From contig WRBH01000006.1 in the NCBI GenBank assembly GCA_009784665.1, positions 1 to 32,530 of the forward strand: a stretch of DNA of 32,530 bases. The letters are read 5' to 3'. Position 1 is the stretch's first letter; each line of letters starts with the position of its first letter. The position numbers and the translations under genes are program-made. The notes under the pieces were generated by a model. It ran no database searches and was not told the origin of the DNA. It worked only from the letters and a program-made list of their open reading frames with translations. The stretch is from Bacillota bacterium (GTDB lineage: Bacteria; Bacillota; Clostridia; Christensenellales; UBA1242). Shown one piece after another: positions 2,245-16,409 of the stretch.

Positions 2245-5200
2245 ATGAAATATAGAATCGGATTGGATATAGGAGTTGCATCGGTTGGCTGGGCTGTTCT
2301 AGAAAATGACGAACATGATGAGGCGAGCAAAATTGTAGCAAGAGGTGTTAGGGTTTTCGATATTCCGCAGAATCAAAAGGACGGAGGCTCGCTTATGGCT
2401 GAGCGGCGAGGGTTTAGGAGCATGCGCCGAACTCTGCGCCGTCGAAAGGTGCGCGTAGGACTTGTAAAGCATTTGTGCGAGAGTACTTTTAATATAGCTT
2501 TCAAAGGAATTTTGGAACAGCAGAATCTGCCTTGTATATATTCTATCAGGCTTGACGCTCTTTCGAGGAAACTCGAAATTGAGGAATTCGCAAGGTTGAT
2601 GCTTCACTTTATCCATCGGCGTGGATTTTTATCGAATAGAAAAAATATCGAAAAAGGCAGCGATGATGGGAAAGTTCTTGTAGGGATAAAAGATAACGAG
2701 AAAGTGTTGAAGGAAAAGGGTTACAAAACAATAGGTGAATATTATGTCAAAGAATTTATTTCAAAAGGATTAACGGTCCGGAACAAGTCTGGGTCATATA
2801 ATTGTACCTTCAACAGAAAGTCAATCGAGGATGAAATAAAGTTGATATTCAGAATCCAGCGTGAACTTGGATTTGATGCAAATCTAATCGGTGAGAACTT
2901 TGAAATAAGATTTCTAGAGCTATTCAACAAGCAAATCCCCTATGATATCGGACCTGGTCACCCAAGCCCATATGCGATTAACAGTTATTTAGATGCAGTA
3001 GGGGTTTGTGAATTTGATGGGAATCCCCGGGCATACCAGGCAACTAATGCAGCGGAGAGATTTCGATTATGGTCAAATTTAAACAACCTGGTTCTTGTAA
3101 CACGCACCGAGAAGACAATCAAGGACAGAGAGTTAACCTTGCCAGAGAAAGAAAGTATCGCAGAATATTGCTTGCACAAAGGCGGGAAAGTCACATATGG
3201 CATGCTGAGGAAAAAACTTGGGCTCGGGGAAGATGTACGATTCAAGCACCTAACTTATGTTAAAAGAGTAAAGACAGAAGGCAGATTCCAAGTCCAAGAA
3301 AGCGAGCCTGTCGAAGTCGAGAAGAAAGTATTTGTCGATTTGCGTGGAAGAAGTGCAGTAAAAAAAGTATTCAAGGACAAGTTCGGAGAACTGACGGACA
3401 TGGAAATTGATACGATAATTACGGTCTTACATGCGTATCACAGCGAAGACAGGCTAAGGATGGCAATTGCAGGGGAGTTGGAGAACGGCAGATTTACCCT
3501 TGACCCAGAGTACACAGACTATGTTTTAAATATCCAACTGCCCCAATCAAAGCCTACACATTTATCGACGGAGATAATTTATAAAATCTTGCCTCATTTG
3601 GAGGCTGGGCATAAATATTATAAGGCGATGGAGCTTGCGGGGTTTAATCATACTACTGCTAGTGAAGTCGAAAAAAAGATAAAGTTGAGTCTGAAAGACA
3701 TTGAAAAGGAAATTCGTAATCCTGTGGTATTGCGTTCGGTGTCCCAAACAATAAAAGTTGTAAATGCAATCATTGACAAGTACGGTTCGCCCCAACAAGT
3801 TATTGTCGAAGTAGCAAGAGATTTAGCACGTGATTTCAGAGAGCGCCAAAAAATAACACGGGAAAATGAAGAGAATCAGGCAAGGAACGAGCGTATCAAG
3901 AAGCAAATTATGGAGCTTGGGATTTTGGTGCCAGGCGGCGAGGATATTGTAAAGTATAAACTTGCTCAAGAACAAAATTGGGAAGACCCCTATGACGGGG
4001 GGCGTAAAATCGACGCGGAAAAGTTGTTCGAACCAAATTATGTTCAAGTCGACCACATAATTCCATACAGCAAAAGTTTTGACGACAGTTATGCAAACAA
4101 AGTTCTTGTTCATGCGGCAAGTAATCAAAACAAGGGAAGTCGTACGCCATTACAATTTCTAACGGGAGATAGAGCACAGATGTTTATTAATTGGGTAAGG
4201 AGTGCAAAAATTTCACCGCGGAAACGGACTAATTTCTTAACTGTAGAGCCAAAGGAAGACGAGATGAAAGAGCGCAACCTAAAGGATACCCAATATATAA
4301 CTAAGTTTATCAAAAACTTTCTTGAAAAACATCTGTATCTTGCGGACAGCAAGCATGGCGTACCTATCAAAGCGATCAAGGGTGGAATGACCGCTCACTT
4401 CCGAAAGCGTTTGGGTCTTAATAAATTTCGTGACACGGACGAGCACCATGCAACGGATGCCATTGTCGTTGCATGCTTCACAGATAAACTTGTCAGGCAA
4501 ATAACTGAATTTTCTAAGAGATACGAAACAATTTACGAGAAGCTGAAATTTCCAGAGCCCTGGGACGGGTTTCGGGACGAGCTACAGGCATTGGCTCCTG
4601 TATCGGTTTCACGAATGCCGAACAGGAAAATAACAGGACCCGGACACAAGGAAACGGTGCGGGGCCTTGTAAAAGAATTAGATGTCAAAGGCAGAGAAAT
4701 TTATTATACAATTACGCGTGTTCCACTTGCGAAGTTAAAGCTAAAGAACGGAGAAATAGAGGGATATTACAACAAGGAATCTGACATAGGCTTGTATAAT
4801 AAAATAAAAGATGTTTTGTTGACGAATCCAGAAAAAGACTTGGAAGCTGCATTTTCTGGGTTTCGCAAACCAAAAGCTGATGGCACTGATGGGCCAGTTG
4901 TACACAAGGTTAAAATTAAAGCAAAGACCACCAATTTTGTGACTCTTGATAGAGTTGGTGGCGTCGCGGACAACGGTTCTATGGTCCGCATAGACATTTT
5001 TGCCAAAGGGGACAAGTTTTACTTTGTTCCAATTTACACGGCGGATTTTTACAAACCACAACTTCCAAACAAGGCATCTGTTTCTGGGAAACCCTATGTT
5101 GAATGGCTCGAAATGGATGAAGGGCTTGGTTTCGAGTTCAAGTTCAGCCTGTATTCCAATGACATATTTCATGTCGCCGAGTATGGATTTTTGTACTATC

Positions 5201-5415
5201 GAGGTGCTGATATCAGTAGTGCAAGAATATCGGCTGCTTACCAGGATGGAAGAGTCGAGGATGGAAAGCGAATCCAGATAAGGATGGGTATACAAAAATT
5301 ACAAGAATTTAGAAAAATGGAGGTCAGTGTTTTGGGCGAAATCAAGGATGCACCATTCCAGCCGCGTGATGTCAGGACACTGTTGGGCCCAAGATCCAAG
5401 AAAAAGGAGAAATAG
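2245..5415 (+). CDS. cas9: CRISPR-associated endonuclease Cas9 (1056 aa), type II-C-like
   Basis: RuvC-I IGLDIGVASVGWAV; Arg-rich bridge helix RRGFRSMRRTLRRRKVRV; RuvC-II QVIVEVARDLARDF; HNH VQVDHIIPYSKSFDDSYANKVLVHAASNQNKG; RuvC-III EHHATDAIVVAC; C-terminal VPIYTADFYKPQLPNKA. Adjacent cas1-cas2 and repeats. Confidence 0.98.
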   Translation: MKYRIGLDIGVASVGWAVLENDEHDEASKIVARGVRVFDIPQNQKDGGSLMAERRGFRSMRRTLRRRKVRVGLVKHLCESTFNIAFKGILEQQNLPCIYSIRLDALSRKLEIEEFARLMLHFIHRRGFLSNRKNIEKGSDDGKVLVGIKDNEKVLKEKGYKTIGEYYVKEFISKGLTVRNKSGSYNCTFNRKSIEDEIKLIFRIQRELGFDANLIGENFEIRFLELFNKQIPYDIGPGHPSPYAINSYLDAVGVCEFDGNPRAYQATNAAERFRLWSNLNNLVLVTRTEKTIKDRELTLPEKESIAEYCLHKGGKVTYGMLRKKLGLGEDVRFKHLTYVKRVKTEGRFQVQESEPVEVEKKVFVDLRGRSAVKKVFKDKFGELTDMEIDTIITVLHAYHSEDRLRMAIAGELENGRFTLDPEYTDYVLNIQLPQSKPTHLSTEIIYKILPHLEAGHKYYKAMELAGFNHTTASEVEKKIKLSLKDIEKEIRNPVVLRSVSQTIKVVNAIIDKYGSPQQVIVEVARDLARDFRERQKITRENEENQARNERIKKQIMELGILVPGGEDIVKYKLAQEQNWEDPYDGGRKIDAEKLFEPNYVQVDHIIPYSKSFDDSYANKVLVHAASNQNKGSRTPLQFLTGDRAQMFINWVRSAKISPRKRTNFLTVEPKEDEMKERNLKDTQYITKFIKNFLEKHLYLADSKHGVPIKAIKGGMTAHFRKRLGLNKFRDTDEHHATDAIVVACFTDKLVRQITEFSKRYETIYEKLKFPEPWDGFRDELQALAPVSVSRMPNRKITGPGHKETVRGLVKELDVKGREIYYTITRVPLAKLKLKNGEIEGYYNKESDIGLYNKIKDVLLTNPEKDLEAAFSGFRKPKADGTDGPVVHKVKIKAKTTNFVTLDRVGGVADNGSMVRIDIFAKGDKFYFVPIYTADFYKPQLPNKASVSGKPYVEWLEMDEGLGFEFKFSLYSNDIFHVAEYGFLYYRGADISSARISAAYQDGRVEDGKRIQIRMGIQKLQEFRKMEVSVLGEIKDAPFQPRDVRTLLGPRSKKKEK

Positions 5416-6321
5416 ATGGGCTTCTTAAATATAACTCTTGGCGATACTGTGAAGCATTTCTCCATTAAGAATAACCAATTGCAAGTTCAAACTGTGGACA
5501 GCGAGCGTCAAATTCCTCTTAGAGATATTAACAGTTTAATAATTGAAAGCAGCAAAATAAACTGTTCGGTCTATGCCCTGCAGGCCCTTGTTCGGGAAAG
5601 GGTAGCGGTATATATGTGTGACCATTTGCATTTACCCAATGCGATGATATTGCCATTTAATGATCATTACAGTCAGTTAAGAGTGTTTAATATGCAACAA
5701 GACGCCCCCCGCCCATTGGAAAAACAGCTCTGGCAGGCAATAGTCAGGCAAAAAATATTAAACCAAGCTAGGTGCCTAGCTTTGTTGGGCAAGGAAGGGC
5801 ATGATGAACTTGTCGAAATTGCAAATTCTGTGAACAGCGGTGATACCAACAATAAAGAGGCACATGCGGCTAATTTTTATTGGCGCAAATATTTTGATGG
5901 CAAATATGGGCGGAATACGGATTGTTTTGCTAATGATTTGCTGAATTATGGATATTCACTTGTTCGTGGACAAATCGCTCGCGATATTGTCGCTCATGGG
6001 TTACAGCCCTTCATGGGTATTCATCACAAAAATCAACTTAATGCATTCAATCTGGCGGACGATCTGTTCGAACCTTTTCGCCCTTTTGTTGATGCATTTG
6101 TGTCTGAAAATTTTGATTTTTCGGACAAGCGTGTACTGCCTGAACATAAAAGAATACTCATGCGACTGTTGAATTTGGCTGTGACTATAAATGGAGAAGT
6201 ACACAGTTTGCCAAACGCAACGCATGTGATGGTCGAGTCATTTGTTGCAAGCCTTAGGGATAAAGCCGTGAAAATAATTTTGCCGATATTGGCGGAATTA
6301 AAAAGTTTTAAGTATGAGTAG
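5416..6321 (+). CDS. cas1: CRISPR-associated integrase Cas1 (type II)
   Basis: 301 aa directly after cas9 with SD AAGGAG; Cas1-like NAFNLADDLFEPFRPFVD motif region and operon position. Confidence 0.95.
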   Translation: MGFLNITLGDTVKHFSIKNNQLQVQTVDSERQIPLRDINSLIIESSKINCSVYALQALVRERVAVYMCDHLHLPNAMILPFNDHYSQLRVFNMQQDAPRPLEKQLWQAIVRQKILNQARCLALLGKEGHDELVEIANSVNSGDTNNKEAHAANFYWRKYFDGKYGRNTDCFANDLLNYGYSLVRGQIARDIVAHGLQPFMGIHHKNQLNAFNLADDLFEPFRPFVDAFVSENFDFSDKRVLPEHKRILMRLLNLAVTINGEVHSLPNATHVMVESFVASLRDKAVKIILPILAELKSFKYE

Positions 6322-6634
6322 ATTTATGAGAGTATTTGTGATGTTTGATTTGCCGACTGGTACAAAAAAAGAGCGTGGCGAAGCCACAAGATTCAGAAAT
6401 GCGTTAATAAAACACGGTTTTTATATGTTACAATATTCTGTGTATGTACGATTGTGTGCCAATGTTGATGCGGCAAAGGCTTCGGCTAATACTGTACACA
6501 AGCTCATACCCATGAAAGGGGCTGTACGCATTATGATAGTGACCGAACGACAATACAGCAGCATGTATGTTTTGCTGGGGCCAAAGCATCACCAAGAGAG
6601 TTTCCTGGACGATGACGGCAATTTATTTTTATAA
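6314..6634 (+). CDS. cas2: CRISPR-associated Cas2
   Basis: 106 aa, MRVFVMFDLPTGTKKERGEATRFRNALIKHGFYMLQYSVYVR; overlaps the 3' end of cas1 by 8 bp. Confidence 0.95.
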   Translation: MSRFMRVFVMFDLPTGTKKERGEATRFRNALIKHGFYMLQYSVYVRLCANVDAAKASANTVHKLIPMKGAVRIMIVTERQYSSMYVLLGPKHHQESFLDDDGNLFL

Positions 6635-6658
6635 AAAAACTTGTAAAGGAGGGAAATT

Positions 6659-6805
6659 ATGAGAATTTGTATCTTTTTTGAAAAATCGAAAATCGGTACC
6701 GGCCTATATGTTGTATTACCCAATTTGCAATGCCAACAAAAAACACCATATTTGGTGTTTTCTGCGTCTCAGTCACCTAGTCGATTGTACCATACCAAAT
6801 CTTGA
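6659..6805 (+). CDS. Candidate small ORF (48 aa) downstream of cas2, ending inside the first CRISPR repeat
   Basis: MRICIFFEKSKIGTGLYVVLPNLQCQQKTPYLVFSASQSPSRLYHTKS; strong SD GGAGGG 5 nt before ATG; 24 nt after the cas2 stop. Confidence 0.35.
   Translation: MRICIFFEKSKIGTGLYVVLPNLQCQQKTPYLVFSASQSPSRLYHTKS
6737..6763. terminator. Possible bidirectional intrinsic terminator between cas2 and the CRISPR array
   Basis: AAAACACCA-TATT-TGGTGTTTT, 9-bp stem flanked by A- and T-rich ends; positioned to end both the + strand cas transcript and the - strand array transcript. Confidence 0.5.
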
Positions 6806-7262
6806 AAGGGAACTAAAACGAAGTGCTTTTTCTGGTGACTAGCCATTACATTGTACCATACCAAATCTTGAAAGGGAACTAAAACATTGAACGCCGTCGG
6901 GCTTGCTATACGGGCATTGTACCATACCAAATCTTGAAAGGGAACTAAAACCACAGCATGACAACACAGGCACACACAGACATTGTACCATACCAAATCT
7001 TGAAAGGGAACTAAAACCCATCAAGGTCGTACGGCGATAACACACTAATTGTACCATACCAAATCTTGAAAGGGAACTAAAACGGATAAAAACATAATAA
7101 TATATAACACAATATTGTACCATACCAAATCTTGAAAGGGAACTAAAACCCAGTTATCCCAAACGCTTTCCCATGGGACAATTGTACCATACCAAATCTT
7201 GAAAGGGAACTAAAACTGATTCTGCCGCTCTCGACATCAGGCTCCAATTGTACCATTAAAAC
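6784..7262 (-). CRISPR. Type II CRISPR array: 7 full 36-bp repeats, one 16-bp truncated repeat, 7 spacers (six of 30 bp, one of 31 bp)
   Basis: Identical repeats at 6784, 6850, 6916, 6982, 7048, 7114 and 7181 (+ strand ATTGTACCATACCAAATCTTGAAAGGGAACTAAAAC); truncated copy ATTGTACCATTAAAAC at 7247-7262. crRNA orientation (GTTTTAG...) is on the - strand. Confidence 0.98.
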
Positions 7263-9733: not shown

Positions 9734-9763
9734 TTGACAAAAGCTAGACCTTTGTCGTATACT
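9734..9763 (+). promoter_or_regulatory. Promoter of leader peptide / tpl-tyrS operon (TTGACA - 18 - TATACT)
   Basis: -35 at 9734-9739, -10 at 9758-9763. Confidence 0.75.
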
Positions 9764-9769
9764 GGCCCC

Positions 9770-9835
9770 ATGAGCTTTGTCGCAAAGACCCAAAAAGTGG
9801 GAGCAAGTATGTATTATTATCTGTCGTTACAATAA
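9770..9835 (+). CDS. Leader peptide MSFVAKTQKVGASMYYYLSLQ (or internal start MYYYLSLQ at 9809)
   Basis: ATG 6 nt after the -10 box; internal ATG preceded by GGGAG; three consecutive TAT (Tyr) codons at 9812-9820; stop TAA 9833-9835 immediately before antiterminator segment GCGCAG. Confidence 0.65.
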   Translation: MSFVAKTQKVGASMYYYLSLQ

Positions 9836-9898
9836 GCGCAGATTATTTTCAAAATTTGAATTTTGTCAAGGAACTGCGTCTAATCGCAGTTTTTCTTT
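9836..9898 (+). promoter_or_regulatory. Putative tyrosine attenuator: antiterminator (GCGCAG with CTGCGT) vs intrinsic terminator (AACTGCG/CGCAGTT + TTTTTCTTT)
   Basis: GCGCAG 9836-9841 can pair with CTGCGT 9874-9879; terminator stem 9872-9878/9885-9891 with T-tract; arms overlap so the structures are mutually exclusive. Confidence 0.7.
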
Positions 9899-9933
9899 GC
9901 AACAAAGTTCAAATCTAAATTCAGGAGACAGAA

Positions 9934-11352
9934 ATGGAATTTCCATTAGAAATGCATAAGGCCAGCATAATTAAAAAACTGGAACTCAAACCAATAGACG
10001 AGAGGCTAAGGGCCATCAAAGTGGCGGGCAACAATACATTCATGTTGTCCAGTCGTGATGTATTCTTGGACATGTTAACAGACAGCGGCACAAATGCCAC
10101 CAGCAATCGCCAGCTTGCCGCGATGTTAACCGCAGACGAAGCCTACAGCGGCAGCGAGAGTTTCTTCCGCCTTGAAGCCGTTTTGCAGAAGGTATTTCGC
10201 AAGAAGTTTTTCTTGCCCGCACATCAGGGCAGGGCGTGTGAACATATCCTATCACGAGTACTAATCAAGCCTGGTGACATAGTTCCAACAAATTACCACT
10301 TCACAACAACGCGGGCACATATCAGGTTGCAAGGCGGGGATTTTCTAGAGTTGTTCATTGACGAGGCAATGAAAATAAATTCTAATCATCCCTTCAAAGG
10401 AAATATAGATATTGACAAACTAAAGCAGGCATTCAAGGACCACAAGGGCAAAATCCCCTTTGTGCGCTTGGAGGCGGGAACAAATCTGATAGGCGGTCAA
10501 CCCCTGTCACTTGAGAATATCCGGCAAACCGCCGAACTCTGTCGCGGGCACGGTGTGCCCCTAATGATGGATGCCAGTTTATTGCAAGACAATTTGTACT
10601 TTATTAAAACTAGGGAAGAGGCCTACAAGGACAAATCTATCCTGGAAATTTGCAACGAAATCGCGGACATGATTGATATTATTTATTTTTCCGCACGAAA
10701 GTTCGGTGCGGCTCGGGGTGGGGGAATTTGCCTAAGTGATGAAAGGCTCGCGGGGCAGATACGCGAACTTATTCCATTGTTCGAGGGGTTTATAACCTAC
10801 GGAGGCATGAGTTCAATGGAGCTCGAGGCAATCGCCGTCGGAGCAGAGGAAACTATGGACTTTGATAATATCTCGCAAGGCCCCCGATTTATCAAGTTTA
10901 TGGTAGATGAATTGGTAAAAGCGGGTGTTCCTGTTGTGACGCCTGCGGGTGGCCTAGGTGTTCACTTGGACGCACGGTCGTTCTTACCGCATGTAAGGCC
11001 CCAGGAGTTTCAGGCGGCCAGCCTCGCATCTGCACTATACATAATCTCAGGTATACGGGGTATGGAACGCGGTACAATGGCCGAGGATCGTAATCCCGAC
11101 GGAGCAGAACACATTGCGAATCTAGAACTTGTTCGCCTTGCAATGCCTAGGCGGGTTTTCACCATCAGTCACCTAAAATTCGCCATCGACAGAATTATAT
11201 GGTTATGGCAGAACAAGGAGCTTATCGGAGGGCTAAAATGGCACAGCGAACCAAAGATGTTACGATTCTTCTTCGGCGAATTAGATACTGTCTCAGATTG
11301 GCAGGAAAGATTAGTTGAAAAATTTGAAAAGGAGGGGTACAATACACTATGA
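9934..11352 (+). CDS. tpl: Tyrosine phenol-lyase (beta-tyrosinase), tryptophanase/TPL family
   Basis: FLDMLTDSGTNATS...DEAYSGSESFF...THQGR-like PAHQGRACEH, PTNYHFTTTRAH, PLP region FSARKFGA, GIRGMERGT, LELVRLAMPRRVFTISH; the FTTTR and MERG motifs favour TPL over tryptophanase. Confidence 0.8.
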   Translation: MEFPLEMHKASIIKKLELKPIDERLRAIKVAGNNTFMLSSRDVFLDMLTDSGTNATSNRQLAAMLTADEAYSGSESFFRLEAVLQKVFRKKFFLPAHQGRACEHILSRVLIKPGDIVPTNYHFTTTRAHIRLQGGDFLELFIDEAMKINSNHPFKGNIDIDKLKQAFKDHKGKIPFVRLEAGTNLIGGQPLSLENIRQTAELCRGHGVPLMMDASLLQDNLYFIKTREEAYKDKSILEICNEIADMIDIIYFSARKFGAARGGGICLSDERLAGQIRELIPLFEGFITYGGMSSMELEAIAVGAEETMDFDNISQGPRFIKFMVDELVKAGVPVVTPAGGLGVHLDARSFLPHVRPQEFQAASLASALYIISGIRGMERGTMAEDRNPDGAEHIANLELVRLAMPRRVFTISHLKFAIDRIIWLWQNKELIGGLKWHSEPKMLRFFFGELDTVSDWQERLVEKFEKEGYNTL

Positions 11353-12578
11353 ACTTTACGAAAATTTTGTTTGATCGCTTTAATGCGAACTGGAAAGATA
11401 TAGATATAAAAAGCCTTCTACGGGTCAAGGCCAGGACTGTCCTACCATCCATGGGGGACATCGACCTGAAAAAGCCTCAGAGGGTCAAACTGGGCATCGA
11501 CCCAACGGGCTCCGAAATTCATATCGGACATTTGGCTCCGTTGTTCATCCTTGATATTTTTGCCCGTGCGGGGCACCATGTCGACTTTGTTATTGGGGAT
11601 TTCACATGCAAGATCGGTGATCCAAGCGGCAGGGTATCGGAGAGGGAGATTTTAACCGACGCCCAGATCGCAAAAAACCTACAGACATACATCGACCAGG
11701 TTAATCGTTACTTTGATGTATCCCGTTGGGCAACACCACGCAACAGTGAATGGCTGGCAAAAATCACTATGGCAGAGTTGATTGGTATTACCCAGAATCT
11801 AAACCTGGCAACGATCTTGCAGCGGGATGACTTTCGCAAGCGACTGGAAACGGGTGGAATAACAATGGCCGAGTTAATGTATGGAATTATGCAAGGTATG
11901 GACAGCGTCGCTCTGAAAACAACAATCGAATTGGGCGGCAACGACCAGTTATTAAATCTGCAACAAGGCCGTGAATTGCAACGAATCCACGGTCAACCAC
12001 CGCAAGCAATTATTGTAACGCCTCTGATCGAGGGGCTATGTGGCACGGGCAAGAAGATGAGCAAATCCCTGAACAACTACATTGCTGTGACTGCAACGCT
12101 GGAGGACAAGTTCGGCAAGATGATGAGCCTGCCTGACAACCTATTAGAGCAATACTGGACGACATTCGGTTATTTTTTGGAATCCGAGTTACCATCTCTG
12201 CGTGAATTTATCAAAACCCAACCCCTCGAGGCAAAAAAACAATTGGCAACATATTTCATCGCAATCGAGGCGAAATCTATTCAAGAGGGTGAAAAACAGC
12301 GCACCGCCTTCGAAAAAAAATTCTCGAAGAAAGAACTGACCGACAACGATTTCATCCAGATAACTGCTAAACATGGCGACCGCCTAATTGATGTTTTGAT
12401 GTCCAGCGGCAAATTTAAATCCAAGGGAGACTTAAAAAGATTGTTTATTTCTAAGGCGATTCGAAATCTAGGTGCCCAGGCCGCAGAAATGTCAGAGCTA
12501 GCACTTGAAATGCAAGTAGTTGATGGAATGGAGGTCGGGGTAGGAAGGCTGAATTTCTTCCGTATCAAAGTTGTGTAG
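11349..12578 (+). CDS. tyrS: Tyrosyl-tRNA synthetase
   Basis: KLGIDPTGSEIHIGHLAPLFILDIFARAGH, DFTCKIGDPSGR, GGNDQLLNLQQGR, GTGKKMSKSLNNYI; SD AGGAGG; overlaps tpl by 4 bp. Confidence 0.95.
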   Translation: MNFTKILFDRFNANWKDIDIKSLLRVKARTVLPSMGDIDLKKPQRVKLGIDPTGSEIHIGHLAPLFILDIFARAGHHVDFVIGDFTCKIGDPSGRVSEREILTDAQIAKNLQTYIDQVNRYFDVSRWATPRNSEWLAKITMAELIGITQNLNLATILQRDDFRKRLETGGITMAELMYGIMQGMDSVALKTTIELGGNDQLLNLQQGRELQRIHGQPPQAIIVTPLIEGLCGTGKKMSKSLNNYIAVTATLEDKFGKMMSLPDNLLEQYWTTFGYFLESELPSLREFIKTQPLEAKKQLATYFIAIEAKSIQEGEKQRTAFEKKFSKKELTDNDFIQITAKHGDRLIDVLMSSGKFKSKGDLKRLFISKAIRNLGAQAAEMSELALEMQVVDGMEVGVGRLNFFRIKVV

Positions 12579-14382: not shown

Positions 14383-15087
14383 ATGACATATGCGGCAGAG
14401 CTTGACCCAAGATTGGACGAAGGCTTTGAGGGCACAGGATTTAATATTGTCAAAGCCAAGTTGCGAGCCATTAAATTATTTCCAAGTCTTGCCAGCGTGA
14501 TTAAAAGATTCAGATTCAAAAACGACAGTTCCGCCCACGGAGGAATTGCCCACACAGACGCCGAGAGCTATGTCGCCATAAACGCATCACGCTTTGATCG
14601 AAACGATGATAACGGACAGGCGGCGATTGTCGCACACGAAGCAATGCACACCGAGGAAAAAATCTTCGGCAAATTGGGAAACCTTGCAACAGATGCTGTC
14701 ATTAACGCCAAGATAGTTCTGTCCGGCTTGATGAGTTCTTTGTCTGGCTTCGTGGACATCCCAGGTGCCATATCAATGGGGTCATATAAAATCCATAAGA
14801 TCTTGTGCGAGGCATGGCACTACCTGCAAAATCCACAGATAGTTCCGCAACAAGGGTTGTATGACGACCCAGGGGGCAGCTTCATAGACAAAAGCGAAAG
14901 AGACCTCACGGAGGAAGAGTGCTACCTGGCATGCTTTGGGAATTATGACCTATGGGACAGGATGGTGGCCTGGATAGGACGACGCAAAGAAAAAGAACAT
15001 CAAGAGATGCTGCAGCACGAAAGCACACAAGTTTATAACATAGATGATTACCGCAGGGAAAATTACCATGACATGGCAATCGCTTAG
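14383..15087 (+). CDS. Putative zinc metallopeptidase (HExxH)
   Basis: AAIVAHEAMHTEEKIFGKLGNLATDAVINAKI: HEAMH followed by an N-x-A-x-D-xx-x-N pattern resembling DUF2201-type metallopeptidase-like domains. Confidence 0.65.
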   Translation: MTYAAELDPRLDEGFEGTGFNIVKAKLRAIKLFPSLASVIKRFRFKNDSSAHGGIAHTDAESYVAINASRFDRNDDNGQAAIVAHEAMHTEEKIFGKLGNLATDAVINAKIVLSGLMSSLSGFVDIPGAISMGSYKIHKILCEAWHYLQNPQIVPQQGLYDDPGGSFIDKSERDLTEEECYLACFGNYDLWDRMVAWIGRRKEKEHQEMLQHESTQVYNIDDYRRENYHDMAIA

Positions 15088-16409
15088 TAAGCCCGTCCCC
15101 ATACAACTTCATGTTTGCCTGCCTTGCCACATACAACACATTTGCCTTTTGATTCCCCAACGATACAGCGACTACCCATACCTGTTTTTTTCTTGTGATT
15201 GGTTTCGCATTCCTCTGAACCACACCACGGGGCATAAATAAAGCTCTTGCTGCTATCCAGGCGGTTCTTTGCCGCAGCATACATCGCCTCGTGAATCTCG
15301 TCGAGGAGTGCTGGTACAGCAGCAGGCAGGTCATCGATTTTTATCTTACGCTTTTCTCCGCTGTAACGGATAGAGACGATTGCATCGCCAGCTTCCAAGT
15401 CGCGTGGGCCTATTTCAATCCTCAGGGGGATACCCTTCATTTCGTATTCGGCAAACTTCCAACCTGGGCTGTTGTCGCTGTTGTCGACATGGAATCTTAT
15501 GCTTGGCAATTTTATGCCTGACACATCCACAGCTTTGATAGGTATTAAAACCACCTGGGTCGGGGCAACGCGAGGTGGTAATACTAGGCCATTGTCATCC
15601 CCATGTACCATCACGATACCACCAATCATTCGTGTTGTAATTCCGAATGTAACATAGTGAGGGTAAATCTCACCCTCTTTTCCTTGAACCTTGACACCAA
15701 ATGCTCGCATGAATCCGTCACCCAGATAATGGCTGGTGGCACTTTGCAGGGCCTGGCCATCATACATCATGGATTCAATTGTATATGTGTCTACCGCACC
15801 TGCGAATTTCTCGGACTCGGTTTTTTGTCCACTGACGACGGGAATTGCCAAAAGATCCCGTACGAAGTCCTCGTATAACTTGTGAATCTTGCGTGCCTCA
15901 GTTCTGGCTTCCTCCTCGGTGGCGAACAGGGCATGTCCCTCCTGCCAAAAGAACTCGGTGGTTCGCAGGAACGGTCTAGTATTTTTTTCCAATCGTACAA
16001 TATTTGCCCATTGGTTCAGGCGGAGGGGCAGCTCCTTGTAACTTTGCAAATTCTTGGCAAAGTAATCACAAAACAACGCCTCGCTTGTTGGGCGGATAAG
16101 CAGGGGATCGGGGTCCTCGCCCGCAATTGTCGCAACCTCGGGTGAAAAGCCAGTAATGTGGTCCTTTTCCTTTTGCAACAACGATTTCGGCATCAGCAAA
16201 GGAAACATAACATTGGAATATCCCAAAGTTTTCAGTTTGTTATCGAATTCCGATTTAAACAAATCCCACAATGCCGTTCCATATGGCGGAATGTAAATGC
16301 ACCCTCTGACATTTGAATATGCCGCCAGACCTGACTTGACCACGACATCGGTATACCACTTGGCAAAGTCAACATCACGCGATGTAATTGCCTTAACTTT
16401 TTTTTCCAT
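15084..16409 (-). CDS. proS: Prolyl-tRNA synthetase, ProS type 3 (archaeal/eukaryote-like), short C-terminal region
   Basis: FAKWYTDVVVKSGLAAYSNVRGCIYIPPYGTALWD, IRPTSEALFCDYF, RLNQWANIVRLEKNTRPFLRTTEFFWQEGHALFAT, SPGWKFAEYEMKGIPLRIEIGPRDLE, C-terminal Cys motifs. Confidence 0.95.
   Translation of the reverse strand: MEKKVKAITSRDVDFAKWYTDVVVKSGLAAYSNVRGCIYIPPYGTALWDLFKSEFDNKLKTLGYSNVMFPLLMPKSLLQKEKDHITGFSPEVATIAGEDPDPLLIRPTSEALFCDYFAKNLQSYKELPLRLNQWANIVRLEKNTRPFLRTTEFFWQEGHALFATEEEARTEARKIHKLYEDFVRDLLAIPVVSGQKTESEKFAGAVDTYTIESMMYDGQALQSATSHYLGDGFMRAFGVKVQGKEGEIYPHYVTFGITTRMIGGIVMVHGDDNGLVLPPRVAPTQVVLIPIKAVDVSGIKLPSIRFHVDNSDNSPGWKFAEYEMKGIPLRIEIGPRDLEAGDAIVSIRYSGEKRKIKIDDLPAAVPALLDEIHEAMYAAAKNRLDSSKSFIYAPWCGSEECETNHKKKTGMGSRCIVGESKGKCVVCGKAGKHEVVWGRAY

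Follow-up and report, generated by a model that had tools for sequence, protein, structure and literature searches.

A predicted tyrosine-specific transcription attenuator upstream of a tpl-like lyase gene and tyrS in a clostridial genome

The trp, his, pheA and pheST attenuators of Proteobacteria share a leader peptide with tandem codons, alternative helices (1:2, 2:3 and 3:4), an intrinsic terminator, and an operon that serves the cognate amino acid. In the tnaC-tnaA system a leader peptide precedes a lyase gene; this leader is Rho-dependent, has no codon run, and senses free Trp in order to induce catabolism. Known tpl genes are catabolic as well, being induced by tyrosine through TyrR (PMC1173090). 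As for the Firmicutes, a 2005 survey reported no synthetase gene under classical attenuation (PMC1262725), and the few later cases that we found concern His and Leu. His leaders in place of T-boxes, at hisS*/hisZ, were predicted in bacilli in 2010 (PMC2965389), and a Leu attenuator, a Leu-rich ilv leader that likewise replaces a T-box, is known from Staphylococcus aureus (PMC5794164). The Tyr-specifier T-box (RF00230) also reads tRNA-Tyr charging, by binding the tRNA directly and without a leader peptide. Finally, a leaderless leader-peptide ORF combined with attenuation occurs at trpL of Sinorhizobium, an alphaproteobacterium, where the specificity is for Trp (PMC7298713).

Here we describe a Tyr unit in a member of the Bacillota. 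The window (the whole 32,530-nt stretch of DNA that was analysed) comes from an assembly of 53 contigs that is 77% complete, and a sequence-only reading of it had proposed ribosome-mediated attenuation upstream of a tpl-tyrS operon. The window anatomy and the leader of a congener both support that proposal, and we consider it highly probable that the leader senses tRNA-Tyr charging through ribosome-mediated transcription attenuation of the trp/his type. Unlike the proteobacterial attenuators, it is specific for Tyr, lies in the Bacillota, is probably leaderless, and would control a TPL-like lyase together with tyrS. So far as we found, a Tyr attenuator is new, although the class of mechanism is old; among open papers we found neither a tyrosine attenuator nor a tpl T-box, an absence that is not proof. 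The original observation is right and was understated: the mechanism is known, its specificity and setting are new.

The unit begins with a sigma-70-type promoter on the plus strand (9734-9763), in which TTGACA (-35, 9734-9739) and TATACT (-10, 9758-9763) are separated by an 18-nt spacer. Six nucleotides 3' of the -10 is the ATG (9770) of a 21-codon ORF predicted to be translated, MSFVAKTQKVGASMYYYLSLQ, which ends at a TAA stop codon (9833-9835) and contains three tandem Tyr codons, TAT TAT TAT, at 9812-9820. The spacing between promoter and ATG suggests that the leader is probably leaderless, its ATG forming the 5' end of the RNA. The promoter, ATG, TAT run, stop codon, GCGCAG segment and terminator arms all lie where the sequence-only reading had placed them. 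That reading had also noted an internal start behind GGGAG, which would yield MYYYLSLQ (9809-9835). This start may be used, but translation probably begins at the upstream ATG, because in this genome transcripts seem as a rule to be translated from their first codon. There, 162 long ORFs behind TTGACA/TATAAT promoters have their ATG 5 or 6 nt 3' of the -10, and a stricter, genus-wide pattern (-35/-10, then 3-12 nt, then ATG) occurs 23 times, compared to 0 in a reversed-pattern control. Runs of YYY are rare: of the 5971 ORFs in the genome that start with ATG and are 15-35 aa long, 7 (0.12%) contain one. When the 1.09 Mb were scanned for leaders with a homopolymer run and a terminator, this leader was the only candidate with YYY.

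Folding of the leader RNA predicts three helices. Strand 1 (9819-9828) pairs with strand 2 (AAGCGCAGAU, 9834-9843) to form a pause hairpin, AUCUG.CGUU......AGCG.CAGAU, that starts inside the third Tyr codon and has a predicted energy of -7.9 kcal/mol. Through GCGCAG (9836-9841), directly 3' of the leader stop codon, strand 2 can pair instead with strand 3 (9872-9879), the 5' arm of the terminator, at about -11 kcal/mol. The terminator itself (3:4, 9872-9898), also found in a genome-wide terminator scan, consists of AACTGCG (9872-9878), a TCTAAT loop and CGCAGTT (9885-9891), followed by TTTTTC in a T-rich tract, with an energy of -11.9 kcal/mol, and it lies 5' of the first structural gene. Helices 2:3 and 3:4 are those that the sequence-only reading had drawn; it had overlooked the 1:2 hairpin. 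Among 2000 dinucleotide shuffles of the segment after the stop codon, 29 reached the energy of the GCGCAG/CTGCG pairing (p ~0.015), and the terminator region (9860-9900) was stronger than 200 of 200 shuffles (z -4.0).

To model translation, a ribosome mask was moved along the leader codon by codon. Helix 2:3 can form with the mask placed up to the codon that follows the Tyr run; further on, as far as the stop codon, it is lost, while 3:4 can still form. Once the mask reaches the stop codon it hides strand 2, and 3:4 forms. In these predicted folds, the order of the segments and their behavior under the mask is that of the trp geometry. Two points count against attenuation of this kind. In the minimum free energy structure of a ribosome-free transcript ending at strand 3, 2:3 is already preferred over 1:2, and the energies of terminator and antiterminator differ so little that the outcome would rest on co-transcriptional timing.

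From this anatomy and its conservation, we infer that ribosome stalling controls the unit as follows. RNA polymerase would start near 9770 and a ribosome would load at the 5'-terminal AUG. When Tyr-tRNA is ample, the ribosome would reach the stop codon at 9833 and mask strand 2, such that 3:4 pairs and transcription ends near 9895. When Tyr-tRNA is scarce, the ribosome would stall at the TAT codons and mask strand 1; 2:3 would then pair, no terminator would form, and transcription would enter the tpl-like gene and tyrS. If the leader were not translated at all, 1:2 and 3:4 would form and transcription would end. The likely purpose would be to increase both the supply of tyrosine and its charging; the TPL-like enzyme would then act as a synthase, building tyrosine out of phenol, pyruvate and ammonia.

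The first structural gene (9934-11352, plus strand), preceded by the Shine-Dalgarno sequence AGGAGA, encodes a 472-aa beta-eliminating lyase, and the ATG of tyrS (11349-12578, plus strand) overlaps its stop codon, showing that the two form one operon. The tyrS product scores 244.7 bits against TIGR00234, above the cut-off of 113.8; the name tpl has to become tpl-like. The lyase exceeds the cut-off of PRK13238 (tryptophanase), and TnaA is a weaker match than TPL, with TPL entries in the PDB scoring about 1e-118 to 1e-114 and TnaA entries about 1e-94 to 1e-79. The TPL model TIGR02618 gives 449.9 bits, below its curated cut-off of 720.7. Both genes of the operon point to the same amino acid, since the pocket of the lyase is TPL-like: its specificity positions carry the TPL letters T124, M379, R381 and F448, where TnaA has D, V, I and H, and with F36 these pocket residues are shared with the TyrR-activated tyrosine phenol-lyase of Citrobacter. 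The window enzyme differs from the latter by R217L, K256R, T216S and D258F/L, and by an opposite regulatory logic. R217 and K256 are common to TPL and TnaA but are L and R in the window, in the congener and in all other aligned members of the clade; indeed, these members all carry S216, L217, R256 and F/L258, unlike TPL and TnaA. A divergent homologue (G155) lacks T124 and F448 as well. By these comparisons the window lyase belongs to a TPL-like clade and is not filed as TPL. Elsewhere in the window are a Cas9-Cas1-Cas2 locus (2245-7123), whose repeat/spacer-like array appears as a repetitive minus-strand ORF (6839-7123), and, at 15087-16409 on the minus strand, a family I proS of the archaeal/eukaryotic-like form (TIGR00408).

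A homologue search over 198 genomes, the window's own and its relatives, revealed one congener (G004) with a close homologue of the tpl-like protein, 77% identical. Upstream of the gene lies TTGACA-17-TATAAT followed by a leader, MNELRKSVVAVYYYRKSRQRRAAFCVR, that resembles the window leader in peptide and RNA sequence only in its YYY codons (TAT TAT TAC), while the promoter and the three-way folding are kept. The predicted helices are 1:2, CCGCA.GUCG/CGAC.UGCGG (-13.1 kcal/mol); 2:3, CGAGGC.../...GCCUCG (-20.8); and 3:4 (-18.0), followed by eight U. In ribosome-masked folding, 2:3 is gone from the third Tyr codon onward. Mutually exclusive helices placed for stalling are thus predicted in two unrelated sequences, and at the level of these models the G004 leader is an independent confirmation of the anatomy. 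The sequence-only reading had named orthologous leaders lacking the Tyr codons or the paired segments as evidence that would count against attenuation; the sole congener that bears the gene keeps YYY and all three helices. Because the Tyr unit occurs in two species only, covariation cannot be counted for it.

We saw no tyrS in the 3.7 kb after the tpl-like gene of G004, nor did we find one in its 65%-complete genome. Conversely, three sister species (G001-G003) have tyrS, in whose upstream regions the attenuator is absent, and no tpl-like gene was found in them. We therefore rejected the leader as a tyrS-linked unit; the attenuator goes with the tpl-like gene.

The same clade of lyases is under Tyr T-boxes in other Clostridia. 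We found them directly upstream of tpl-like genes in six genomes from several families, five at or over the gathering score (L048:2669-2915, L078:275-539, L083:1143-1408, L084:3068-3332 and L089:3040-3327) and one below it (L091:3001-3268, 83.4 bits). All six have the specifier loop GAA/AAA-UAC-A, a Tyr codon by the specifier rule GAA..XXXA (PMC5794164). Two unlike devices, judged by sequence, tie the TPL-like clade to a shortage of charged tRNA-Tyr. Given the T-boxes, such a shortage should induce the enzyme, the opposite of the catabolic, TyrR-activated tpl.

Several other features accompany these genes. YYY reading frames lie between the Tyr T-box and the tpl-like gene in L078 (near 595, MDPDYYY.., in frame with the gene) and L084 (near 1397 of the reverse complement, MDDDYYY..), possibly as a second layer of control. 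In L048, a T-box with a Trp specifier (UGG, 978-1205) precedes a lone trpB (1326-2495) adjoining the Tyr T-box and tpl-like gene, a pair suggestive of indole salvage beside phenol salvage. GTAGnAYGG motifs occur near the 5' end of the regions upstream of other tpl-like genes (L072-L076, L079-L082, L085-L088 and L090), often as a period-8 repeat (TAGnATGG-TAnnATGG-TAG), some with long-range CAGGG/CCTGC pairing around a terminator-like hairpin. These regions have no Rfam match, and the motif may be a putative regulator site or RNA. We rejected the idea of one Rfam family for all clostridial tpl-like leaders, as only part of them are T-boxes and the period-8 repeat gave no convincing common fold.

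Within the genus itself, T-boxes were not found. The sequence-only reading saw none, and a search with RF00230 (specifier stem, antiterminator with UGGN bulge) likewise found none in the window or in any of the five genomes of the genus, where stricter filters may lose weak matches; most other members of the family that we searched have them. Scanning the window's genome (G000, 1,094,588 bases) and G004 (665,994 bases) for a promoter, short ORF and intrinsic terminator yielded further leaders with cognate runs. In G000, leaderless ORFs with terminators encode HHHH before a small ORF and hisS (C1:42949, minus strand) and NNN before a nondiscriminating Asp-tRNA(Asn) ligase (C26:14485, minus), and an NTNN unit was also found before Asp-tRNA(Asn) ligase. 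In G004, a leader with six Cys codons (CCC/CC/C) precedes cysK (C9:12073, plus), and a KKEKK leader precedes dapB-dapA-lysA (C18:6385, minus; dapA and lysA were read by eye). Less clear cases are NNN before a gene for a tRNA-editing-domain protein with an amino-acid racemase (G000 C1:6567, minus), NQQ before glnA (G000 C8:15286, minus) and NNN before a GNAT gene (G004 C4:25177, minus). We dropped a KKK leader (G000 C33) and a VVV leader (G000 C2), which have no cognate gene.

The background for a specified amino-acid run in short ORFs of the window's genome is 0.1-0.3%. A helix able to compete with the terminator is predicted in all nine units (9/9), with a shuffle control for the window unit only. 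The antiterminator of the two Asn units, which look paralogous in sequence, covaries (GGGAUAC/GUAUCCC versus GGGUUGC/GUAACCC). The His and Asn units were not found before hisS and aspS of the sister species, indicating that these units are young, which also counts against the attenuation model. T-boxes seem to have been lost in this lineage, with leader-peptide attenuators apparently in their place. The hisS*/hisZ and ilv leaders likewise replace T-boxes in Bacillota; in contrast to those cases, the genus here has several units, for other amino acids, and no T-box that we found.

Could the leader instead work by arrest, as tnaC does? Ribosome-bound free tyrosine would then stall the ribosome at the leader stop codon and so switch on a tpl gene with a catabolic role, much as tryptophan acts on tnaCAB. 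In favor are the homology of the enzyme to TnaA/TPL and the catabolic role of known tpl genes, which tyrosine induces through TyrR (PMC1173090), yet a ribosome held at the window leader stop codon masks strand 2 and so favors termination, the reverse of what arrest calls for. The window terminator is intrinsic whereas tnaC is Rho-dependent; the window and G004 leaders share YYY and no common C-terminal arrest motif; and in other genomes this clade is controlled by Tyr T-boxes, whose signal is uncharged tRNA. We give this explanation very little credence. Nor do we see much to recommend mere coincidence, in which a constitutive promoter is followed by a terminator that is only partial, and the YYY run and the pairing mean nothing. 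Neither short ORFs nor terminators are unusual, and p is only ~0.015 for the 2:3 pairing taken by itself. But YYY, with its background of 0.12%, appears again ahead of the orthologue in a leader of unrelated sequence, and hisS, Asp-tRNA(Asn) ligase and cysK also have cognate runs in front of them; chance is an extremely improbable author of this pattern.

A different view accepts the attenuator but holds that tyrS alone matters, the tpl-like gene being a passenger that degrades tyrosine. Indeed, T-box-controlled tyrS is a classic case of Tyr-tRNA sensing (Henkin 1992, cited in PMC1262725). The Tyr unit of G004, however, precedes a tpl-like gene with no tyrS beside it, tyrS in the sister species has no attenuator, and the Tyr T-boxes of other lineages precede the tpl-like gene, all of which make this view unlikely. 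We favor control of the lyase and tyrS together by tRNA-Tyr charging.

What would the lyase do under such control? Neither chorismate synthase nor TyrA (PDH_N) was found in 36 genomes of the family, with positive controls in 14 of 14. PDH_N is present in 12 of the 16 other tpl-like carriers tested, so we rejected universal Tyr auxotrophy of carriers, and the case for a synthase draws chiefly on regulation and on the pathway missing from the family. A tyrosine-making role is the simplest reading of these sequences; the enzyme may make tyrosine from phenol. In its full form, which we put forward tentatively as a real possibility that we would not yet call probable, the TPL-like clade is a tyrosine synthase (phenol, pyruvate and ammonia) under tRNA-Tyr control, exerted by Tyr T-boxes in several Clostridia and by newly evolved leaderless attenuators, which also serve His, Asn, Cys and Lys genes, in a genus associated with termite guts in which neither T-boxes nor a shikimate/TyrA route can be detected. 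If true, this would mean that classical attenuation has taken over from T-boxes wholesale and that phenol salvage supplies tyrosine. A Tyr attenuator in a genus with several cognate leaders and no T-box found would be a natural experiment on swapping tRNA-sensing devices, and its regulatory logic suggests that a lyase family known for breaking down tyrosine makes it here.
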